Below are positions 6,537 to 20,329 of a stretch of 20,337 nucleotides of DNA, piece by piece. Both the position numbers and the translations under genes were made by a program. Source of the stretch: a virus; the IMG/VR virus record IMGVR_UViG_3300035698_011980, positions 1 to 20,337 of that record. The stretch is one strand, 5' to 3'. Every line of letters begins with the position of its first letter. Positions within the stretch are counted from its first letter, which is position 1. The notes beneath the pieces were generated by a model. That model was not told the DNA's origin. It searched no databases and saw only the letters and a program-made list of their open reading frames with translations.

Positions 6537-7268
6537 ATGCTGACAAGAAAAACAGCCGCCTCCGTTAGCGCCATAAATTCTGGTCCCGTTTTGTGGACAA
6601 AAGAAACACGCTCCGTTGCTGAGTTACATCCAAATCCGCGCAACGTAAATGCAATGACAAAGCGGCAATATAAAGAACTGATAATATCCATTGAAAAATT
6701 TGGATATGTGGAACCAATAGTAATCAATAGAGACAATCAGATCATCGGCGGATTTCACCGCTGGAGTACATTCAATGAGGCGGGGCAAACAGAATTAATT
6801 ATCGATGTCCGTGTTCCCAGCCGTTTACTTTTCCCCCATGAATGTGATGAATTAATGTTAAGGCTTAATCAAAGCGGTGAGGTGGATAGGGATGTGCTGT
6901 TGCGGAATTTTGAAAAGAAAGATTTACTTGACTATGGTTTTTCTGAAAAGGAAATCACAGTTGAGGATCAAACGCAACCCGGCAACACATTGAGCCGTAC
7001 CGATCCAGAAAAGGATAAGAAACTTTTTATTAAAGAATTGAAAAAGTTTCATGATCAGATCATGCTATATGATACCAGTAAGCTGAGCACGGATTCTAAA
7101 CTTAGTGAGGCGTTACAGTGTATAGAAGATGCCATTGGGGATATATATGTGTACAATGAAAAAAGCTACCAAGAAAAATCCACGCACGGTTTAGTAGTTC
7201 GGCAGCTTAGTATGTACCTTTGTGATATTCTTTGGGCTTTCTCGGAGTTGGTGGTTGACAATGATTAA
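6537..7268 (+). CDS. ParB-like nuclease/partition-type N-terminal domain protein
   Basis: 243 residues. Residues about 25-85 follow the ParB/Srx N-terminal pattern: VAELHPNPRNVN, then a helix ending SIEKFGYVEPIVINRDN, then IIGGFHRWSTFNEAG, in the place of the family's GHxR box. Phage proteins with only this domain often sit beside DNA methyltransferases and may act as DNA-binding, nuclease or NTP-dependent adaptor proteins; here a methyltransferase follows at once. The C-terminal 100 residues are helical and unassigned. It begins MLTRKTAASVS, the shared LTRK peptide. No strong SD precedes the ATG. The next gene starts inside its 3' end. Confidence 0.8.
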   Translation: MLTRKTAASVSAINSGPVLWTKETRSVAELHPNPRNVNAMTKRQYKELIISIEKFGYVEPIVINRDNQIIGGFHRWSTFNEAGQTELIIDVRVPSRLLFPHECDELMLRLNQSGEVDRDVLLRNFEKKDLLDYGFSEKEITVEDQTQPGNTLSRTDPEKDKKLFIKELKKFHDQIMLYDTSKLSTDSKLSEALQCIEDAIGDIYVYNEKSYQEKSTHGLVVRQLSMYLCDILWAFSELVVDND

Positions 7269-8940
7269 ACATAAAGAACCGATAGTACCCATTCGTAAAC
7301 AAATGAATTTTGTTTTGTCGTTCGGTGACTTATCAAAAATTGCAAAAGAGATCGCCGAAAAGCACGGATGGGATAACAAAAAGCAAACGGATGGTGAGGT
7401 TGTAGCTTTAATGCACTCTGAGCTATCCGAATGTCTTGAGTTTATGAGACACGGCAACCCGCCATCGGATCATATACCAAATTTTACAGGCGTGGAAGAA
7501 GAGCTTGCGGATGAAATTATTCGTATTATGCACTATGCCGCATCAAAAAAATTAAGAATTGCTGAGGCTGTCATCAGCAAAATAATATTTAATAACTCAA
7601 GACCGTACAAACACGGCGGTAAAAAAATTCTAAGGGGCACTATGTCGATTAAAATCATTTGTGGTGATAACGTTTCGGTGTTGCGTACTATGCGGGCCAA
7701 CTCAATAGATGCCGTGGTGACTGATCCCCCATATGGTATCCGCTTTATGGGTAAGACGTGGGATTATGATGTGCCAACGGTTGAGCAATGGCAAGAGGTA
7801 TTAAGGGTATTAGTGCCGGGGGGATACCTTTTGTCATTTGCTGGAACGAAAACCCAACACCGCATGGCTGTGAACATTGAGGATGCAGGTTTTGAAATTC
7901 GTGATATGATCGCATGGGTGTACGGTTCCGGGTTTCCTAAAAGTGTAAACATTGCTAAACAATTTGATAGGGTGGCTGGTGTTGAAAGAAAAATTCTTAA
8001 AAGAAAGCGTATATTCCGCAACACACAAAGCTGGGAATCTGCATCCCCTAATGGAATGTTAAGCGTAGGGGAACAGAATTTTGATACCACTCAGGACATG
8101 ACAAACGAGGCGAAGGAGTGGTCAGGGTACGGAACAGGGCTAAAACCGGCTTTAGAACCCCTTACCTTAGCCCGTAAGCCGTTTGGTGGCACACTTACAG
8201 ACAACGTAAAAGAGAATGAAAGCGGCGGTTTAAATATTGATGCGTGCCGTGTTGGATCAGATACTATGAAAAGAACATACTCTGATGGGAAATTCAAATC
8301 ACATAACCGATCAATGGCTGGCCATAACACCGGAAGGATTGATGGTGGTACTGTTGTTGGCAGATGGCCCGCTAACTTAATACACGATGGATCGGATGAG
8401 GTGTTGGCTGTATTTCCAAACACCGGCCCATCACGGGCAGCAAAAAGAGGATTACAACATTCTGGCCGACATGGTGGATTTGCTGATCTTGGTGGTAATA
8501 TAAAAGAGGGTACAGATTCTATACGCGGACATAATGATAATGGTGGATCGGCGGCGCGGTTTTTCTATTGTGCTAAATGTTCAAGCAAGGATCGCAATGA
8601 GGGCTTAAAGGATTTTACAACAGTGTCAAGAAAACAACGTACCGGACGAAATACAGACAGTGCAATAAACGGAATGGCAGGATCTTGGGCACCTAATAAA
8701 AATGATCACCCAACGGTAAAACCCACGACCTTAATGCAATACCTTGTTCGGCTGGTTACACCTAAAGGGGGTAAGGTTTTAGTTCCGTGGTGTGGTTCAG
8801 GTAGTACAGGGAAAGCCTGTAATTATGAGGGCTTTGATTTTGTAGGAATTGATAATGATCTGAGAGCAACCGAGATCGCAAAAGTCAGGGCTAACTTTCC
8901 CTCCAGTGAAAAGAAAACTGTTCTAAGGCGAAATATATGA
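7261..8940 (+). CDS. MazG-like pyrophosphohydrolase domain fused to a beta-class DNA methyltransferase
   Basis: 559 residues from ATG 7261, which overlaps the ParB-like gene by 8 bp. Residues about 20-122 are MazG-like: acidic motif HSELSECLE (52-60) and EEELADEII (79-87), ending in the family's usual RPYKHGGKK tail. From residue 128 (MSIKIICGDN) the chain is a DNA amino-methyltransferase of the beta order: motif IV DPPYG (155-159) comes first and the SAM-binding motif I, PWCGSGSTG (509-517), near the end, after HPTVKP (483-488). It likely makes N6-adenine or N4-cytosine methyl marks. The central GLKPALEP and ARKP motifs are typical of phage enzymes. The join lies at an A7 run; with A6 the MazG part would stop at TAA 7631-7633 and the methyltransferase would start at its own ATG 7642. 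So this may be two genes. Confidence 0.85.
   Translation: MIKHKEPIVPIRKQMNFVLSFGDLSKIAKEIAEKHGWDNKKQTDGEVVALMHSELSECLEFMRHGNPPSDHIPNFTGVEEELADEIIRIMHYAASKKLRIAEAVISKIIFNNSRPYKHGGKKILRGTMSIKIICGDNVSVLRTMRANSIDAVVTDPPYGIRFMGKTWDYDVPTVEQWQEVLRVLVPGGYLLSFAGTKTQHRMAVNIEDAGFEIRDMIAWVYGSGFPKSVNIAKQFDRVAGVERKILKRKRIFRNTQSWESASPNGMLSVGEQNFDTTQDMTNEAKEWSGYGTGLKPALEPLTLARKPFGGTLTDNVKENESGGLNIDACRVGSDTMKRTYSDGKFKSHNRSMAGHNTGRIDGGTVVGRWPANLIHDGSDEVLAVFPNTGPSRAAKRGLQHSGRHGGFADLGGNIKEGTDSIRGHNDNGGSAARFFYCAKCSSKDRNEGLKDFTTVSRKQRTGRNTDSAINGMAGSWAPNKNDHPTVKPTTLMQYLVRLVTPKGGKVLVPWCGSGSTGKACNYEGFDFVGIDNDLRATEIAKVRANFPSSEKKTVLRRNI
7632..7644 (+). promoter_or_regulatory. Internal ribosome-binding site and start of the methyltransferase part
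   Basis: AAGGGG (7632-7637) lies 4 nt before the in-frame ATG at 7642, which is the natural first residue of a stand-alone methyltransferase (MSIKIICGDN). The layout TAA-GGGG-CACT-ATG is that of adjacent genes. A separate methyltransferase could therefore be made even if the fusion is real. Confidence 0.55.
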
Positions 8941-11518: not shown

Positions 11519-11548
11519 TTTTATTTACCATTTAGAAAGGTTATGGAT

Positions 11549-12925
11549 ATGCATCCAAAATTACAAGCTGAAAAGATTCAAAAAATGGCTGAGGGTTCTA
11601 TGTATACATACTTGGAACTTAGGGAAACATTTGATCAGATAAAAAGCTGGACTGATTTTGAAAGTTCGTTCAAGTTATTACAAAATGCTATACACATGTC
11701 AACGACACAGCAAATATCTCTTATAGACACGGCAACCCAACTATATCATGAGTGGCTAGTAAAAAAGGAATCACAAGATACCCGTGTAAGCCAACACCTC
11801 ACCTATATCGATGAACAGCCTATAGGCTTTAAAGATATACACCGGGCCATATATACACCAAAGCAAACTATAGTAATTCTACAGACAGGCGAGAAAGGGA
11901 TCGCCACATATAAGAAAGGCGATAGTTATTCACGGGATACTGGATTTTGGTGTGCATACTCTAAAGCATTAAGAAGTAAAATAAAAGCATCTGCATCAGC
12001 CGGTGGGTTGCTAGTACTTAAACAGATAACAAAAGAAATCATTGATGCGTGTGTTATACATAGAACCTTTTCATCGTTTATCAAAGACGTAAAGAAACAG
12101 AAAGATCCTGAACACTTTGAAAAGGGCGGTATTGTTGATGGTAATAAACGCCGGTTTATAAAAGAAACTATTCAACCGGCTGTTGATAAAATTACCGATG
12201 GGTACAAAAAAGATACATCGGTACTAGAAAACGTTTATGCTTTAAGACATCCGAATGGTACGTACTTTGAAAAGCATACATCTTTAGATGAATTTGTTTT
12301 TGTTAAAGAAATAACAAAAGCATCCACTTTTATTACACCGATGCACGCTGATGATTATGCTAATAAGTATCCAACACTTGAGAAACTTACCATTGTTGAA
12401 TTTTCTTATCCAGCGTTAAAAAAGACTGGAACACTTATTGATAAGAAACATTATAGAATTCGTATTGGATACTTTTATGTATTCTCAGCAACTGAAGATC
12501 GCGTATTAATGTGTGAATATGCTGAGAGCAAACAGTATGAAACTATGAAAGATGCTGAGTACGTTCTTGAACATTACGTTGATACGGATAAACATTCATG
12601 TACTATAATAACTGTTCCTGCTGGTGCCCGTGAATGTTCTCTTTCTCTCTTAAAGGCTGCTGGTGATAAAATTTCAAATGAGCCAAATCATCATGTTAAC
12701 CAGTGTTTTAAATTATATCATAATCAAGGGCACTATGCTATCAAAGATTGGTGCGGTGGGGCACACCCTGATAATAATTATGCGTGGCTAATGCGTACCA
12801 GTGGTACAGGACATGTGTATGCTGGCAAAGTTACTAAAGTAAAATCAGTCCACAATATTACTGAAAAGGAATTTGCCGATATGTGTGGTGGTCATCCTGA
12901 ATGGTTTGAATTAATTGCTGCTTAA
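11549..12925 (+). CDS. Large orphan phage protein, about 458 aa
   Basis: Start placed at ATG 11549 since AAAGG (11536-11540) is 8 nt upstream; ATG 11543 is only 2 nt from it. I do not recognise a family. The N-terminal 90 residues are helical. The segment TIVILQTGEKGIATYKKGD, then GFWCAYSKALRSKI (about 106-150), is a strand-turn-strand plus helix pattern. The C-terminal half has a Cys/His-rich stretch (QCFKLYHNQGHYAIKDWCGG, then HPDNNYAWLM) and ends MCGGHPEWFELIAA. It has no membrane segment or P-loop. It is the largest unassigned gene here and stands in a run of small unknown genes. Confidence 0.78.
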   Translation: MHPKLQAEKIQKMAEGSMYTYLELRETFDQIKSWTDFESSFKLLQNAIHMSTTQQISLIDTATQLYHEWLVKKESQDTRVSQHLTYIDEQPIGFKDIHRAIYTPKQTIVILQTGEKGIATYKKGDSYSRDTGFWCAYSKALRSKIKASASAGGLLVLKQITKEIIDACVIHRTFSSFIKDVKKQKDPEHFEKGGIVDGNKRRFIKETIQPAVDKITDGYKKDTSVLENVYALRHPNGTYFEKHTSLDEFVFVKEITKASTFITPMHADDYANKYPTLEKLTIVEFSYPALKKTGTLIDKKHYRIRIGYFYVFSATEDRVLMCEYAESKQYETMKDAEYVLEHYVDTDKHSCTIITVPAGARECSLSLLKAAGDKISNEPNHHVNQCFKLYHNQGHYAIKDWCGGAHPDNNYAWLMRTSGTGHVYAGKVTKVKSVHNITEKEFADMCGGHPEWFELIAA

Positions 12926-14096: not shown

Positions 14097-14588
14097 ATGG
14101 CAAGGTTGACAAGAAAGAAGGCAGTCTTAACTGTCAAGGGTAAGAAACCTCTTGCACGTCAATCACAGCCTACTCCTAAAAGTAAAGGCAATCCCAGAGG
14201 TGCAGGGCGTACGCCCGGATTCAATCATGGCCTTACTCTCAAGAGAATTATAGAGGCGTGCTATAACCAATATGGCCTTGTTACCTATATTGCTGAGGAG
14301 CTACAGGTTGAGCGGGCTACCGTTTACAAATGGCAAAAGACCTATCCAGAGGTAAAAGCGGCGATGGCTGATGCCAATGAACACAGACTTGACAGAACAG
14401 AAAACGCGATGTTTAAGGTTATTGACACACAAGGATACGATGCCGCTAAGCTTATGCAATTTCATATTAAATGTAAAGGTAAACAACGCGGCTATGTTGA
14501 AAAACTAGAACTTGCAGGACAGTTTGGACATGATATCACAATAGGCATCGGACTACCCAAAGGGGAAAAAGCGGATGACTATAACTAA
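14097..14588 (+). CDS. Terminase small subunit
   Basis: 163 residues directly upstream of, and overlapping, the large terminase gene. A helix-turn-helix lies at about 48-85 (KRIIEACYNQYGLVTYIAEE, then ATVYKWQKTYPEV), as in small terminases that recognise the packaging site. It is followed by a helical part (HRLDRTENAMFKVIDTQGYD, then AAKLMQFHIKCKGKQRGYVE) usual for oligomerisation in this family. The N-terminal 40 residues are basic and carry MARLTRKKAVLTVKGKKPLA and a GAGRTPG motif, both shared with other proteins here. No SD is visible before the ATG. It would start packaging by binding DNA and recruiting the large subunit. Confidence 0.87.
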   Translation: MARLTRKKAVLTVKGKKPLARQSQPTPKSKGNPRGAGRTPGFNHGLTLKRIIEACYNQYGLVTYIAEELQVERATVYKWQKTYPEVKAAMADANEHRLDRTENAMFKVIDTQGYDAAKLMQFHIKCKGKQRGYVEKLELAGQFGHDITIGIGLPKGEKADDYN

Positions 14589-14649
14589 TGGCGGCACACG
14601 GAAAGTATGCCTATTCCTTTTCATACTTTTATTGATTGCGGTAAACAGT

Positions 14650-15927
14650 ATGCATATTAATATTGATCTTAGTAACCTAGACAAAGTAACAGCCCCAAGA
14701 TTCCTACCCCTGTATAAAAACAAATTTCGTAACCTACATTTATGCGGTGGTGCTGGTTCTACTAAGTCACACTTTGCCGCTCAAAAACTTTGTGTTAGAA
14801 TACTGGCCGGAATGAAGACCGGGCTTGTTCACAACTTTGTAGCTTTACGTAAGACACAACCAGCCGTAAGAAAATCAGTATATACACTATTAGAAAATAA
14901 AATAGTCGACAATGATCTGCATACTGTTGCCAAATGTTACCCCAGCGATCTAACGGTTCGATTTGCTAATGGTTCTAAAATTATGTGTGCCGGTCTTGAT
15001 GATCCTATGAAACTAAAATCAATAGAAAAGATTACCGGGTTCTGGCTTGAGGAGGCAACCGAGTTTACAAAGGCTGATAGGCAACAGGTTGATCTTCGTT
15101 TGCGTGGTGATATAGGAACCTACAAGCAAATACTTGAAACTTATAATCCTATGGATATGAATCACCACCTTTTTCAGAACGTGCATAAAAAGCTTGGTGA
15201 TGATTTTACTGGTGTACATCCAAACTATCCCCGTATGTATATGCACCACAGTACATATCATGATAACCCATTTATTGATCAGGAATACATTGATGTTCTT
15301 GAGGGATTAAAGGATGAGGATGTTGGGTTCCATAAAATTTATACATTAGGCAGGTGGGGTGCTTTAAAGAATCTTATATATGGTGGTAAGTGGCAAAGTG
15401 TTGATACCGCTGGCTGGCCTGTTGATTTTGAGGATGCTTGTTATGGTTTTGACTTTGGGTATAACAATCCGAGTGCACTAGTATTTATTGGTATACTTGA
15501 TGGTGTTCCATATATGCGGGAAATTATTTATCAAACCAAACTAACTAACACACAGCTAATTGAAAAGATGGATGAGCTTGGTGTTAATAAAGAGATTCCT
15601 ATATATGCGGATAGTGCGGAACCCGCACGCATAGAAGAAATAGCCGATGCCGGTTATGATTGTAAACCAGCAATAGAGGCAAAGAAACCACACGCGGTAA
15701 AGGCACGGATAGACTTTTGCAAACGATCACACTTTCGGGTAGATGCCCACAGCCCCAATGTTATTAAAGAATTATCTGTCTACAAATACAAAGAAGATCG
15801 AGATGGTAATGTATTTGATGAGCCTGTTAAATTTATGGATCATGCTATGAATGCATTTGAATATGGATACTATGAGCATTGCCGGATGGGGATGACTATG
15901 CCGGGAATAGCTTTTCTAAAATCATAA
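14650..15927 (+). CDS. Terminase large subunit (packaging ATPase and nuclease)
   Basis: 425 residues from ATG 14650. Walker A GGAGSTKS (33-40), Walker B FWLEEAT (131-137), and an RNase H-type nuclease with Asp268 (YGFDFGYNN), Asp321 (YADSAEP) and Asp397 (FMDHAMNAFEYG). This is the order and length (about 420) of PBSX/Terminase_3-type large subunits, whose N-terminus typically begins just like MHINIDLSNL. An upstream in-frame ATG at 14575 has a better position (overlap with the small terminase, AAGGGG nearby) but would add 25 residues with a hydrophobic core (VCLFLFILLLIAV), strange for a cytoplasmic motor; I prefer 14650 with moderate certainty. It pumps DNA into the prohead through the portal and cuts it. 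Confidence 0.95.
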   Translation: MHINIDLSNLDKVTAPRFLPLYKNKFRNLHLCGGAGSTKSHFAAQKLCVRILAGMKTGLVHNFVALRKTQPAVRKSVYTLLENKIVDNDLHTVAKCYPSDLTVRFANGSKIMCAGLDDPMKLKSIEKITGFWLEEATEFTKADRQQVDLRLRGDIGTYKQILETYNPMDMNHHLFQNVHKKLGDDFTGVHPNYPRMYMHHSTYHDNPFIDQEYIDVLEGLKDEDVGFHKIYTLGRWGALKNLIYGGKWQSVDTAGWPVDFEDACYGFDFGYNNPSALVFIGILDGVPYMREIIYQTKLTNTQLIEKMDELGVNKEIPIYADSAEPARIEEIADAGYDCKPAIEAKKPHAVKARIDFCKRSHFRVDAHSPNVIKELSVYKYKEDRDGNVFDEPVKFMDHAMNAFEYGYYEHCRMGMTMPGIAFLKS

Positions 15928-15938
15928 CGGAGGATGAA

Positions 15939-16169
15939 ATGGTTAAAGCAAAATTCAGAGTAGAATCACAAACAATAAATGCAGATGGTTCTGGTTCTGT
16001 TGTTATTGTTTTAGTTGAAGATGGTTCTAACGAATGGATACCACGCGGAAAAATAAAGATGTTTACTAATGAGTTTTCAAAAGCTGATAAGCTTGATGTC
16101 AATAAGGAATATTATCTTGATTTTTCACCAGTACCTGCTAGTACAAAGAGCCACAATAAAAAGAAATAA
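15939..16169 (+). CDS. Hypothetical small beta-rich protein, 76 aa
   Basis: ATG 15939 with an ideal SD, GGAGG (15929-15933); the longer in-frame start at 15879 lies inside the terminase gene. The protein is made of short strands (KFRVESQTINADGSGSVVIV, then DGSNEWIPRGKIKMF) with a basic tail (KSHNKKK). It resembles small single-domain beta proteins, but no family is assigned. Its position between terminase and portal suggests a structural or accessory role. Confidence 0.7.
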   Translation: MVKAKFRVESQTINADGSGSVVIVLVEDGSNEWIPRGKIKMFTNEFSKADKLDVNKEYYLDFSPVPASTKSHNKKK

Positions 16170-16178
16170 AGAGGAAGT

Positions 16179-16910
16179 ATGGTTGACTTTATTTATATAG
16201 AGGGCTTAAAGCGTAGCGGTTTACACCTATTTGTAAACTGGGTGATGGCTTTATATACATCTCCCCGGTTTGTTAATAATATACACCCAACACATCCACA
16301 ACAAACAGCAAACAAAATAAATAAGAAAATGAATAAGGGTGTAGATGCTATCATTGTACTTTGCGAAGATCCTTGTCAAGCACATAATAATTTAGCTTTC
16401 CAGATTGTTAATGAATTAAACATATCAGCAAATATATATGAATTTCTTTTAGTACGTGATCCCTACAACTGGATAGCATCTTACATTAGACGGTATAGCG
16501 TTGATACAAAACGCCGGGAGGTTCACGGTAGTACATTCTTTAATGATTATAATAAAAATTCAATGACATACTTTAAGCTATGGCTTGAGGTACAGGCAAA
16601 AACTAAAAAGTATACTATGCGGATATGTTATAACTGTTTTATGAATCAGGGTTACTTTCGTAAAGCTATCGCCAATGTTCTACACCGTACACTATACAGC
16701 AAGAAAGAGGCTGATGTATTTAATACAATGGCCCACACCGGATCAAGCTTTGACCTTCAAGCAATAAATGATAAAAGCATAGAACCAAAACAGATGGCCG
16801 TGTTTCACCGTTGGCATAAATATTTAAAACCTTTTGTAAGTATAGAAACTGTACCAAAATTTATAAAACAACTTACCCATGAATGTTATCAAAAGGATCT
16901 CTATGTTTAA
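16179..16910 (+). CDS. Sulfotransferase-like protein
   Basis: 243 residues. It starts with a strand and loop, FIYIEGLKRSGLHLFVNWVM (4-23), in which KRSGLHxxxNW corresponds to the 5'-phosphosulphate-binding loop of a sulfotransferase subgroup with RSGxHxxxNW. The second hallmark is LLVRDPYNWIASYIRRYS (90-107), the 3'-phosphate-binding motif with Arg93 and Ser101. These enzymes move a sulfuryl group from PAPS to sugars, lipids or proteins. It lies in the packaging/head module, where it has no structural role, and overlaps the following methyltransferase gene by 8 bp. The substrate cannot be told from sequence; host or phage surface glycans are the obvious candidates. SD GAGGAAG lies upstream. 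Confidence 0.72.
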   Translation: MVDFIYIEGLKRSGLHLFVNWVMALYTSPRFVNNIHPTHPQQTANKINKKMNKGVDAIIVLCEDPCQAHNNLAFQIVNELNISANIYEFLLVRDPYNWIASYIRRYSVDTKRREVHGSTFFNDYNKNSMTYFKLWLEVQAKTKKYTMRICYNCFMNQGYFRKAIANVLHRTLYSKKEADVFNTMAHTGSSFDLQAINDKSIEPKQMAVFHRWHKYLKPFVSIETVPKFIKQLTHECYQKDLYV

Positions 16911-17544
16911 GCTAACAGAAGAAAACCTAAAAGAATATTGGGATGTACGTTCTGAAAAACAAGGTGCATCAACTGTAGGGAATATGGGGAGAAGCATCAA
17001 ACAGCAACAAAATGCATTTGATAAACTTGCACCATGGATCATGCCAAAGCTTTTACCCAGTGTACGCACACTTGATTATGGATGTGGTGTTGGCAGATTT
17101 GCTAAATACTTTGAAAATCCTTTTTTATATCTTGGTGTTGACATTACAAAAACACTTATTGATATAGCTAAAGTCAACAACCCGGATTATAAATTTGATC
17201 TACTCGAAAGCCCTTATCTTGTATTGCCTGAAGAGTATATACCTGATCAGCTTGTGGGGCCACAACAGATTTTTTGTTGTAATGTATTACAGCATAACCC
17301 GGATGATGTTGTACAAAAAATAATTGATAGCTGGAAACTATACGGAAAAGATTTACAACATATAGTATTATATGAAAATACTACTACAGGAGAAGATAGT
17401 GGTCATGTAAGATTTCGTACACCAGAACAATACACAAGAATATTTGAAAAGCCGTTCCCTGATTTTAAGGCTGATTATAAATTTGGGAAGCCCGGTTTGC
17501 ATAAAGAATTACACACACTGTTTACATTTACCAAACAAGGATAA
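16903..17544 (+). CDS. Class I SAM-dependent methyltransferase
   Basis: 213 residues from ATG 16903, with AAAAGGA (16891-16897) upstream; the ATG at 16879 lacks an SD. Motif I is LDYGCGVGRFAKYF (residues about 57-70), followed by YLGVDIT with the ribose-binding Asp, and later IFCCNVLQHNPDD where motif IV/post-II is expected. The Rossmann core is complete at a normal size. The N-terminal YWDVRSEKQGASTVGNMG is typical of small-molecule methyltransferases rather than DNA methyltransferases (no DPPY or NPPY). It overlaps the sulfotransferase gene and probably acts on the same product. The portal gene follows 3 bp later. Confidence 0.8.
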   Translation: MFKLTEENLKEYWDVRSEKQGASTVGNMGRSIKQQQNAFDKLAPWIMPKLLPSVRTLDYGCGVGRFAKYFENPFLYLGVDITKTLIDIAKVNNPDYKFDLLESPYLVLPEEYIPDQLVGPQQIFCCNVLQHNPDDVVQKIIDSWKLYGKDLQHIVLYENTTTGEDSGHVRFRTPEQYTRIFEKPFPDFKADYKFGKPGLHKELHTLFTFTKQG

Positions 17545-17547
17545 CAG

Positions 17548-19800
17548 ATGCCTAACTGGTTCACTAATGCACTCGGTAAGGTTACACCGGGAATAAAAGC
17601 ACGGACTGATGGAGTTGCTAGAGCGATGGCTGCTTTGCTGGGTATGCAATATACTACAGCCGGAACAAGAGGATTGACAAACTCTATCAGTTATGCAACG
17701 CTTGCTGCATCATATAAAAGTTGGGTATATGTAGCAACCAGTAAAATAGCTAAGACCGTGGCAATGTTGCCGCTTGAGTTATATGCATATAAGAGCAACG
17801 GAAAATATCTACAAGGCAGAACCATTAAAGCACGGCTGCGAAATTGTGCAACTAAAGCAGATGAGCATCGATTTATGAAATCAAATCATATAGAGAAAGA
17901 ACAAATTTTTGATCACCCTTTTCTTGATTTGATTAATCACCCGAACAACATAGAGACACGGTATACAACATGGTATAACACTATGTTGAAAATGGAACTA
18001 TCAGGATCATGTGCACACTATATGCCTAAGAACGCATTAGGACAACCAGCGGAGATCTGGACATTACCTTTAACAAGCACAGGGCAATTTAAAGTAATAC
18101 CTGATTCAAAAACAATTATTAAAGGTTATGTATATCAGGATGGCAGCGTGGTTACACGGTTTGATCTTGATGAAATTTTATACCTCAGATACCCAAGTCC
18201 CAAAGGGCCGTTTGAAGGTATGTCGGCATTGAAAGCGCAAACCTTGCCATATGACATTGATAACTTTCTTATGCAATTACAGTATTATCTTTTAAAAAAT
18301 AATGCTGTTACCGGGTTGACACTCTCAACGGATAAAGAATTGAAAGGTAAACAAGTAGATGAGATCCTTGCTCTTATTAAATCGCAATATGGCGGATATA
18401 AAAAGGGCGGGATGCCTATGGTGTTACATAGCGGATTTCAACCAGCGGCACAAAAAGGAAACAGCACATTAAAAGATATGCTTATAAATGAAATAGAGGA
18501 TACCAGCCGGGATAAAATGTTGTCGGCATATGATGTGCCCGCTGGATTGGTTGGTTTGGTTAAGGATGTCAACCGGGCAAACATGGAAACGCTAAAGGAA
18601 ACTTTCATAAGTGATACAATATTTCCTAAGACAATGCTTATAGAGGAATATTATGAAAGTTTTATTTTGCCAATCTATGATGATCGCCTTACCCTTGATT
18701 TTGTATTGCCAGAATTTAAACAAAAAGAAATTGAACTGAAAACAAAGGAATTAAATCTTAAAACTGGCTATCATAATATCAATGAAGAAAGAGAACTTAA
18801 CGGAGAAGAGCCTGTCCCGTGGGGCGATGAGCCGTGGTTAGCTTTCAATCTTACACAGCCGGGAACAAAACAAGCAACTACAGAACCTGCAAAAAGTTCT
18901 ACTCTTTTTCCAGTGAACCCCATATCCAAAGATACTAAATTAATGAATCGTGATTACTGGACAGAAGAAAGAAAAACTATTTATTGGAAACAGTTTATCC
19001 AGAATACGGAAAGCTGGGAGACTCTATTTACTAAGACCATGCAAAAGTTTTTTAAGTCTCAAGAAACTATGATTCTCGATGCACTGGAAACAGAGGGTAA
19101 AAAGTTTCTTGGACAGGTGGCCGGATGGTCTATTAAAAAGCGTCGTGAATTTGTAAAAGCTAAAGATGCAACAGCAACAATCAATATTGATACAACTGAA
19201 GAGGCTAAACGTTTAGCAGAAACAACCGAACCGGATTACTTGTTAATTATGTCAGAGGCAGGGCAAGCACGTATTGATGATCTGACAGGCCAGAAAAATC
19301 ACAAGGCTGAATTTAATGTAACATTTGATGTTGCCGATGATGGTACGGCAGATTGGCTTGGTGATAGGTTAGACAGCTTTTCTAAAGGGGTAACAGATAC
19401 CACGTTCAAAGGTGTTAAGGCTATTCTGCGGGATGGGTTTAATGAGGGCTTACCAATTAATGCAATAGCTGAAAATATAAAAGAAAAATTTAAAAGTTGG
19501 GATGAATGGCGGGCGCAAACTGTTGCACGTACTGAGGTGATAGCCTCAAGTAATAAGGCAGATATTGAGGGTGTACATCAAAGCGGACTTGAAGATACAC
19601 TAAACAAGTTTTGGATCTCATCACGGGATGGGGCCGTTCGGGATACACACGCGGAGGCAGAAGAACAATATGCGGATGGTATAAAAATTGATGAGGATTT
19701 TGTGGTAGGTGGCGATTCAATGGAGGTGCCGGGTAATGGTTCCAGCGCAGCCGAAAATATCAACTGCCGGTGTTTAGTGGGGTATATAGAAAAAAAATGA
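17548..19800 (+). CDS. Portal protein (HK97 type) fused to a MuF-like head morphogenesis domain
   Basis: 750 residues. Residues about 1-430 are an HK97-family portal: SWVYVATSKIAKTVAMLPLE at the start, a central DEILYLRYPSPKGPFEGMSA, and AYDVPAGLVGLVKDVNRANM (near 330-350), followed by a helical clip-like part. From about 600 to the end it is MuF-like: TVARTEVIASSNKADIEG, KFWISSRDGAVRDTHAEAE, and a final ENINCRCLVGY, all hallmarks of that domain. In other phages these are usually two neighbouring genes, but portal-MuF fusions are known. The portal ring forms the packaging gateway; the MuF part usually assists head assembly or is carried in the virion. It ends in an ATGA overlap with the cupin gene. 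Confidence 0.92.
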   Translation: MPNWFTNALGKVTPGIKARTDGVARAMAALLGMQYTTAGTRGLTNSISYATLAASYKSWVYVATSKIAKTVAMLPLELYAYKSNGKYLQGRTIKARLRNCATKADEHRFMKSNHIEKEQIFDHPFLDLINHPNNIETRYTTWYNTMLKMELSGSCAHYMPKNALGQPAEIWTLPLTSTGQFKVIPDSKTIIKGYVYQDGSVVTRFDLDEILYLRYPSPKGPFEGMSALKAQTLPYDIDNFLMQLQYYLLKNNAVTGLTLSTDKELKGKQVDEILALIKSQYGGYKKGGMPMVLHSGFQPAAQKGNSTLKDMLINEIEDTSRDKMLSAYDVPAGLVGLVKDVNRANMETLKETFISDTIFPKTMLIEEYYESFILPIYDDRLTLDFVLPEFKQKEIELKTKELNLKTGYHNINEERELNGEEPVPWGDEPWLAFNLTQPGTKQATTEPAKSSTLFPVNPISKDTKLMNRDYWTEERKTIYWKQFIQNTESWETLFTKTMQKFFKSQETMILDALETEGKKFLGQVAGWSIKKRREFVKAKDATATINIDTTEEAKRLAETTEPDYLLIMSEAGQARIDDLTGQKNHKAEFNVTFDVADDGTADWLGDRLDSFSKGVTDTTFKGVKAILRDGFNEGLPINAIAENIKEKFKSWDEWRAQTVARTEVIASSNKADIEGVHQSGLEDTLNKFWISSRDGAVRDTHAEAEEQYADGIKIDEDFVVGGDSMEVPGNGSSAAENINCRCLVGYIEKK

Positions 19801-20174
19801 TAAATAAACCACAAAGAATAATAAAGGTGTGGGGTTATGAAGAAATATTTCATAACACGGATCATTGCTGTAAAAAATTGGTAGTTAATCAACAGCACCA
19901 ATGTTCTGAGCATTTTCACCGGGAAAAGAATGAAACTTTTTATCTTGTGTGTGGTCTTGTGTATTTCACTCTTGATAGTTTGTCTTTCTATTTAGAACAG
20001 GGTAAAAGCATAACCGTAAGAAAGAACCAGCATCATAAATTTTTAGCACTAAAGGATTCGGAAATTATAGAGGCCAGTACACCACACAGCGAAGGAGATA
20101 GTTTCCGGGTGTCCACCTCTAAGAAACTGGATGATATTACTTTTAAAAAATTGGTGAAAGGTTATGATCAATAA
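19797..20174 (+). CDS. Cupin domain protein (phosphomannose isomerase type II C-terminal-like)
   Basis: 125 residues, ATG 19797 in the overlap with the portal stop; a run of seven A precedes the start rather than an SD. The sequence follows the one-cupin part of mannose-6-phosphate isomerase/mannose-1-phosphate guanylyltransferase enzymes: KVWGYEE, then CSEHFHREKNETFYLVCG with the metal-binding His, His and Glu, and KNQHHKFLALKDSEIIEAST with the last His. Such stand-alone cupins act on or bind nucleotide sugars or small acids. Near a sulfotransferase and a methyltransferase it supports a carbohydrate-modification function for this cassette. The next gene begins in TAATG. Confidence 0.78.
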   Translation: MINKPQRIIKVWGYEEIFHNTDHCCKKLVVNQQHQCSEHFHREKNETFYLVCGLVYFTLDSLSFYLEQGKSITVRKNQHHKFLALKDSEIIEASTPHSEGDSFRVSTSKKLDDITFKKLVKGYDQ

Positions 20175-20329
20175 TGGCAGACAAAAAAGAATACAAAGAC
20201 CGGCAAAAGGTTGTTGATAAACTTGTTCCAATTTGGAAAGAGTTCAGGGTAGAGTGGATGAAGTCTAAAGAAGATATTGATTCACTCGGTAATGCTGGAA
20301 TTAAAAAGATGCTCAAAAGCAGTTCTTAA
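20174..20329 (+). CDS. Small hypothetical helical protein, 51 aa
   Basis: ATG 20174 in a TAATG overlap with the cupin stop, ending at TAA 20327-20329. Charged and helical throughout (KKEYKDRQKVVDKLVPIWKE, KSKEDIDSLG, IKKMLKSSS). No motif or membrane segment. The coupling supports it as a gene. The 8 bases left in the window after it (GGCGGTTA) may begin the SD region of the next gene. Confidence 0.55.
   Translation: MADKKEYKDRQKVVDKLVPIWKEFRVEWMKSKEDIDSLGNAGIKKMLKSSS

Follow-up and report, generated by a model that had tools for sequence, protein, structure and literature searches.

The window analysed here, the whole of a 20,337-base IMG/VR virus record that is probably a genome fragment, carries genes for a sulfotransferase, a SAM-dependent methyltransferase and a cupin interleaved with its packaging and head genes. 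We favour, at somewhat better than even probability, the reading that these are late-expressed glycan-tailoring genes in a head operon, and that they most likely act on a glycan carried by the virion itself. The observed basis of this reading is the enzyme families, the predicted folds, the reading-frame coupling to structural genes and the recurrence of relatives with sugar genes, from which we infer that the three enzymes are active, work together and modify a glycan of the virion.

Layout of the locus

The upstream part of the region codes for a terminase small subunit-like HTH protein (14097-14588; PHROG 309 terminase small subunit, 2.4e-6) and for the large terminase subunit TerL (14575-15927; Terminase_3, 3.3e-38; PHROG 3717, 1.1e-47), which forms the upstream boundary. 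A 76-aa ORF follows (15939-16169), which opens with an ATG at 15939 after an AGGAG-like site and gives no significant family match in Pfam or PHROG. Next come the 243-aa sulfotransferase (16179-16910) and the 213-aa methyltransferase (16903-17544). The portal, with a MuF head-morphogenesis domain as fusion partner (17548-19800; Phage_portal, 2e-37; Phage_Mu_F, 4.5e-10), stands between the methyltransferase and a 125-aa single-domain cupin (19797-20174; PHROG 7851, 5.5e-21), and a 51-aa ORF read from the sequence (20174-20329) is coupled to the cupin. All of these genes are on the plus strand, and judged from their sequences the identities of TerL and the portal are certain.

Sequence checks of the junctions gave an 8-bp overlap between the sulfotransferase and methyltransferase genes (16903-16910, with the methyltransferase starting at ATG 16903), a 3-bp gap from the methyltransferase to the portal, an ATGA overlap of portal and cupin at 19797-19800, and a TAATG at 20172-20176 that joins the cupin to the 51-aa ORF. 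The original prediction placed a sulfotransferase and a methyltransferase between TerL and the portal with a cupin behind the portal, and it is borne out in its coordinates and in every overlap. These reading-frame overlaps suggest that the cassette is expressed late and is co-transcribed with terminase and portal.

The insert between TerL and portal measures about 1.6 kb, and both this insert and the post-portal cupin are missing from the compared phages that are nearest by portal or terminase. Specifically, TerL and portal are adjacent or one small ORF apart in GBK2, Silence, PHS21, P12026, Sarge, THSA-485A and Vibrio 1.189.B, and Vibrio L1 has one larger ORF between them. The slot can take up genes, since Vibrio BT-1011 has six ORFs there. 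Set against most of the compared phages, the window's gene order shows an insertion. Single-protein scans of IMG/VR with the window's sulfotransferase, TerL or portal returned no relatives, and a TerL motif pattern search returned none either, which left the phage's own lineage unsampled.

Elsewhere in the window, positions 7222-8940 code for a DNA N6/N4 methyltransferase with an N-terminal stretch that is MazG-like by eye, possibly a fusion, and positions 11543-12925, upstream of the terminase genes, code for a 460-aa protein that no Pfam model matches.

The three enzyme families

With Pfam, PHROG and NCBIfam models the sulfotransferase gives no accepted match, and its sequence has no counterpart in the PDB; the assignment draws on the motifs and homologues of an uncurated family found in this work and on a predicted fold. 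Viral relatives were obtained with a degenerate DNA pattern for the first motif, and profiles then extended the set to nine viral and eighteen cellular loci, the cellular ones mostly from cyanobacteria. The family motif is G-[ML]-[KR]-R-[STC]-G-x-H followed by R-x7-S, which in the window protein reads G9-L-K-R12-S-G14-L-H16 (GLKRSGLH, residues 9-16) and R93-x7-S101. Nine residues (G9, R12, G14, H16, W21, N33, R93, S101 and R161) are invariant in a 25-row alignment. The RSG of the window protein corresponds to the beginning of the PAPS P-loop, and the 3'-phosphate motif of SULT enzymes consists of an Arg and a Ser eight residues apart. Near the N-terminus of the window protein the 5'-phosphosulfate P-loop is present as a variant in which the canonical Pro and Thr of PRSGT are replaced, and the 3'-phosphate motif is present as R93 and S101, conserved at this eight-residue spacing in 25 of 25 rows and preceded by strand E84-92.

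When the AlphaFold2 model of this protein (pLDDT 80.6, pTM 0.81) was compared with the PDB by Foldseek, the ten best matches were all sulfotransferases, with E-values of 9.4e-6 to 4.3e-4 and moderate TM-scores of 0.4-0.5. The best was mSULT2A8 (9.4e-6) and a tyrosylprotein sulfotransferase was also among the top matches, although the position of a match among these sulfotransferases says nothing of substrate. The original call of a sulfotransferase for 16179-16910 is upheld by these ten matches, structure prediction having returned a PAPS-sulfotransferase fold and not the lack of one. Like SULT and other PAPS-dependent sulfotransferases (Sulfotransfer_1, Sulfotransfer_3), the window protein combines this predicted fold with a first motif that resembles a P-loop and, further on, the 3'-phosphate motif R-x7-S; unlike them, its family has a G-[ML]-[KR]-R-[STC]-G-x-H P-loop with an invariant His. 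The annotated sulfotransferases of S-SCSM1 and Xanthomonas phage FoX4 fall in the same superfamily by predicted fold.

None of the tested family members scored above a Pfam cut-off, the best being locus L010 with 20.2 bits against a Sulfotransfer_1 cut-off of 22 bits; such a miss would count against membership of a curated family, not against membership of the PAPS-dependent sulfotransferase superfamily. Because no Pfam, PHROG or NCBIfam model recognises the window copy, many members of its family are probably listed as hypothetical proteins. Searches of INPHARED phages by tblastn gave no match to the window sulfotransferase or to the methyltransferase and sulfotransferase pair of locus L019, and nothing on point about phage sulfotransferases was found in the literature searched.

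The product of 16903-17544, originally proposed as a SAM methyltransferase, is one of class I by motif and Pfam model, with a glycine-rich motif I, an acidic residue after strand 2 and a passed Pfam model (Methyltransf_11, 23.2 against a cut-off of 21.2 bits). Across a four-row alignment motif I (DYGCGVGR, D58 to R65) is invariant at all positions but the V, and D80 is also invariant. A profile search placed the family at 13 loci (E <= 1e-3, taken from the pattern scan), of which about ten are convincing. Over nearly its full length the window protein shows about 32% identity with proteins encoded directly upstream of sulfotransferase homologues in L015, L018 and L019. No match was found by tblastn in INPHARED with either the window methyltransferase or that of L041. 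There was only one weak partial match in the 17 cellular genomes that hold the sulfotransferase family, and only five weak or partial matches in 292 cyanobacterial genomes. On these counts the idea that the methyltransferase is a host gene was set aside, and its family looks viral.

The cupin passes Cupin_2 (28.6 against a cut-off of 27.2 bits). Its metal-site residues H39, H41, E46 and H80, together with G53, are invariant in 26 rows and give the motif HxH-x4-E-x6-G plus a later His. The AlphaFold2 model (pLDDT 93.5) has a double-stranded beta-helix fold; D-lyxose isomerase is a profile match (1.1e-9), and Foldseek matches include phosphomannose isomerase, KdgF and D-lyxose isomerase as well as the nucleoside dehydratase Pac13 and dioxygenases. 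Profile and fold matches thus agree with the sugar-isomerase-type cupin first proposed, and by sequence and model the protein is sugar-isomerase-like. The PHROG 7851 name 'cysteine dioxygenase' was rejected for it, since profile and fold favour sugar isomerases, though dioxygenases also match. Like the cupin of the cyanophage ADP-heptose cassettes (S-SM2, Bellamy and S-CAM1; PHROG 7851), with which it shares about 40% identity, the window cupin conserves the metal-site residues. Unlike those cassettes the window is without HldE, GmhA and HldD, no homologues of which were found by phmmer in the 20 kb.

Genomic surroundings of the homologues

In the T4-like records L013, L016 and L017 the sulfotransferase gene lies directly 3' of a gp23-type major capsid gene (phrog_138, 1e-72 or better), and in L013 a tail sheath gene is found downstream of this stretch. 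These records represent one lineage, not independent events, and no GT2 or GT4 was detected in them, all three being fragments. Other viral copies adjoin an NAD epimerase (L003) or a weak GT9 (L014). The family also occurs in cyanobacterial glycan loci; for example, in Okeania the sulfotransferase gene lies between GT4 and GT2 genes, often as tandem copies. Because of these contexts in the T4-like, L003, L014 and Okeania relatives, gene neighbourhood points to head modules of three lineages, the window's included, and to cellular glycan loci as the setting of the family, the viral copies lying in or beside the head modules. The tandem copies in Okeania were seen at loci L026, L027, L031 and L040.

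Four contigs (L015, L018, L019 and L044) each have a methyltransferase homologue immediately 5' of a sulfotransferase homologue, an order that is reversed relative to the window. These again are one lineage, not independent events, and their terminase and portal genes are divergently transcribed. The three larger records of this lineage have a GT4 of 717-781 aa directly 3' of an HK97-type major capsid gene. GT4-domain proteins behind the major capsid were observed at L151:2779-6003, L152:2716-6144 and L153:4517-7927, in phages with the methyltransferase-sulfotransferase pair. The window sulfotransferase sits on a long branch that the tree does not join with this lineage, and an AU test did not reject joining them (p = 0.099), leaving a shared origin of the two pairs neither shown nor excluded by the sequences.

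Other methyltransferase relatives have varied neighbours. In L047 a patatin-like gene takes the place of the sulfotransferase. By eye, a lipase-like gene (L018:8728-9498) and patatin-like genes (L019:8672-9619 and L047:5536-6354) lie directly 3' of the methyltransferase or of the pair. In L045 the TerL-portal interval, which is the slot used in the window too, holds a GT2-methyltransferase fusion, a GT9 and further genes; the fusion, at L045:4293-5606, belongs to a phage unrelated to the window's. The gene row in L050 is major capsid, GT4, methyltransferase and head-tail connector. L041 and L042 carry GT2, GT9, a sulfotransferase-like gene (by eye, without a Pfam match) and the methyltransferase; L051 carries the methyltransferase, a sulfotransferase-like gene (by eye) and GT9, and L043 a GT9 homologue with the methyltransferase.

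The cupin family is very common in marine viruses, with at least 525 loci, mostly in heptose-nucleotide cassettes. Among the best 80 of these at least 525 loci, genes within 4 kb included HldD-like (65/80), GmhA-like (63/80) and HldE-kinase-like (57/80) ones. The two closest relatives of the window cupin, L067 and L068 (45-47% identity), lie in portal/connector modules with methyltransferases, and the heptose cassette was not detected at either locus. Gene order in L067 is portal, collagen-like gene, connector, unknown, cupin, GT9-like (by eye) and methyltransferase, and in L068 it is connector, unknown, methyltransferase, cupin, GT9-like (by eye), methyltransferase and collagen-like fibre. 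The collagen-like repeat proteins (L067:857-1621 and L068:4658-5587) adjoin these cupin/methyltransferase cassettes. Marine virus AG-345-O18 (L060:974-5102) has Sulfotransfer_3, 2OG-oxygenase-like and heptose genes together with the cupin near repetitive structural-looking ORFs.

No other contig was found with all three genes. The earlier idea of a single linked set is not supported: the pair recurs in one other lineage with its order reversed, and the cupin recurs separately. The set was not found in host lipopolysaccharide or capsule clusters. The proposed link to carbohydrate genes held up, as relatives of all three lie beside glycosyltransferases, heptose genes or epimerases, repeatedly in head modules, and in unrelated phages each gene is found, apart from the other two as a set, in the company of sugar and head genes. 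Within the 20 kb of the record, which are without capsid and tail genes, neither a glycosyltransferase nor a heptose gene was detected; related cassettes in other phages do include a glycosyltransferase. Taken singly, none of these contexts would prove a function. A glycan-tailoring role fits because the three families, followed separately, lead to the same surroundings of sugar genes and head genes, and this apparent convergence is hard to explain by chance.

Proposed role and its alternatives

We propose that the three enzymes would be produced together with terminase and portal. The cupin would make or isomerise a sugar precursor, and the PAPS-dependent sulfotransferase and SAM methyltransferase would cap or decorate a sugar, the glycan being one on capsid, tail or fibre that may be built by glycosyltransferases encoded beyond the fragment or by the host. 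The virion is a more likely target than the host surface because the genes adjoin capsid genes and because a GT4 lies behind the capsid gene in the other pair-bearing lineage. The modification may serve superinfection exclusion or shielding of the virion, the two roles originally suggested. Against the cassette reading, a structural-gene neighbourhood is also where accessory genes insert. A broader proposal, that several unrelated phage lineages coat their own capsids with sulfated and methylated sugars by means of the uncurated sulfotransferase family, encoded next to capsid genes, and so acquire a negatively charged glycan coat, is possible but on the doubtful side.

The cassette might instead act late in infection on the polysaccharide or lipopolysaccharide of the host surface, so that progeny cannot re-adsorb or superinfection is prevented, with the late operon serving only for timing. 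It is established that phage genes can change the surface antigens of a host, and such a role would suit both the cyanobacterial sulfotransferase homologues that sit among GT4 and GT2 genes and the cupin relatives in cyanophage heptose-nucleotide cassettes with glycosyltransferases. We nevertheless consider it unlikely: the genes are found time and again next to capsid, portal or connector genes, and in the lineage with the methyltransferase-sulfotransferase pair a GT4 lies directly 3' of the major capsid gene, both of which fit the virion better. Nothing that looks like a membrane or export component was seen in the window. Less probable again is that the three genes are independent insertions (morons) without joint function that form a cassette by chance. 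The methyltransferase is rare, yet four of its 13 loci (about ten convincing) adjoin the same sulfotransferase family, nearly all the remaining ones occur with a glycosyltransferase or another sulfotransferase-like gene, and sugar contexts are common to all three families. Chance would account for the lack of a second contig with all three genes, for the reversed order of the pair in the other lineage and the tree that keeps the two sulfotransferases apart, and for the portal that separates the cupin from the pair; BT-1011 shows that the TerL-portal slot takes ORFs.

A non-glycan substrate, whether a tyrosine or other residue of a capsid protein that is sulfated directly, or a lipid, small molecule or nucleic acid that is modified, seems very unlikely to us. 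It would agree with the tyrosylprotein sulfotransferase among the top Foldseek matches and with the L013, L016 and L017 fragments, where the sulfotransferase lies behind the capsid gene and GT2 and GT4 were not detected. However, Foldseek rank among sulfotransferases is not indicative of substrate, and for all three enzymes most relatives occur together with glycosyltransferases or sugar-nucleotide genes.

The glycan-tailoring reading has a counterpart in Che8, Corndog and Myrna, whose virions are glycosylated by phage glycosyltransferases with glycans on capsid and tail-tube proteins, as described in passages of PMC12363180 and PMC11256854 that cite Freeman et al. 2023. The window resembles these phages in having phage-encoded sugar enzymes, here placed among head genes. 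It differs in that the Che8, Corndog and Myrna systems are defined by glycosyltransferases, whereas the window has genes for a predicted sulfotransferase, a methyltransferase and a cupin, and no glycosyltransferase in the fragment. No description of sulfation or methylation in Che8-type virion glycosylation was found in the literature searched.

As judged from sequences and models, the enzymes of this uncultured phage probably sulfate, methylate and reshape sugars, and the relatives among head genes of unrelated phages suggest that phages decorate their particles or the host surface with unusual sugars. Phage glycan-modification modules are known, and sulfation is possibly the new element. The pair with a GT4 directly 3' of the capsid gene provides a concrete testable system. 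Few phages are known to glycosylate their virions, and the accounts so far are in terms of glycosyltransferases; if our reading is true, phages would add sulfate and methyl groups to surface sugars as well, which would alter the charge, stability or recognition of the particle.
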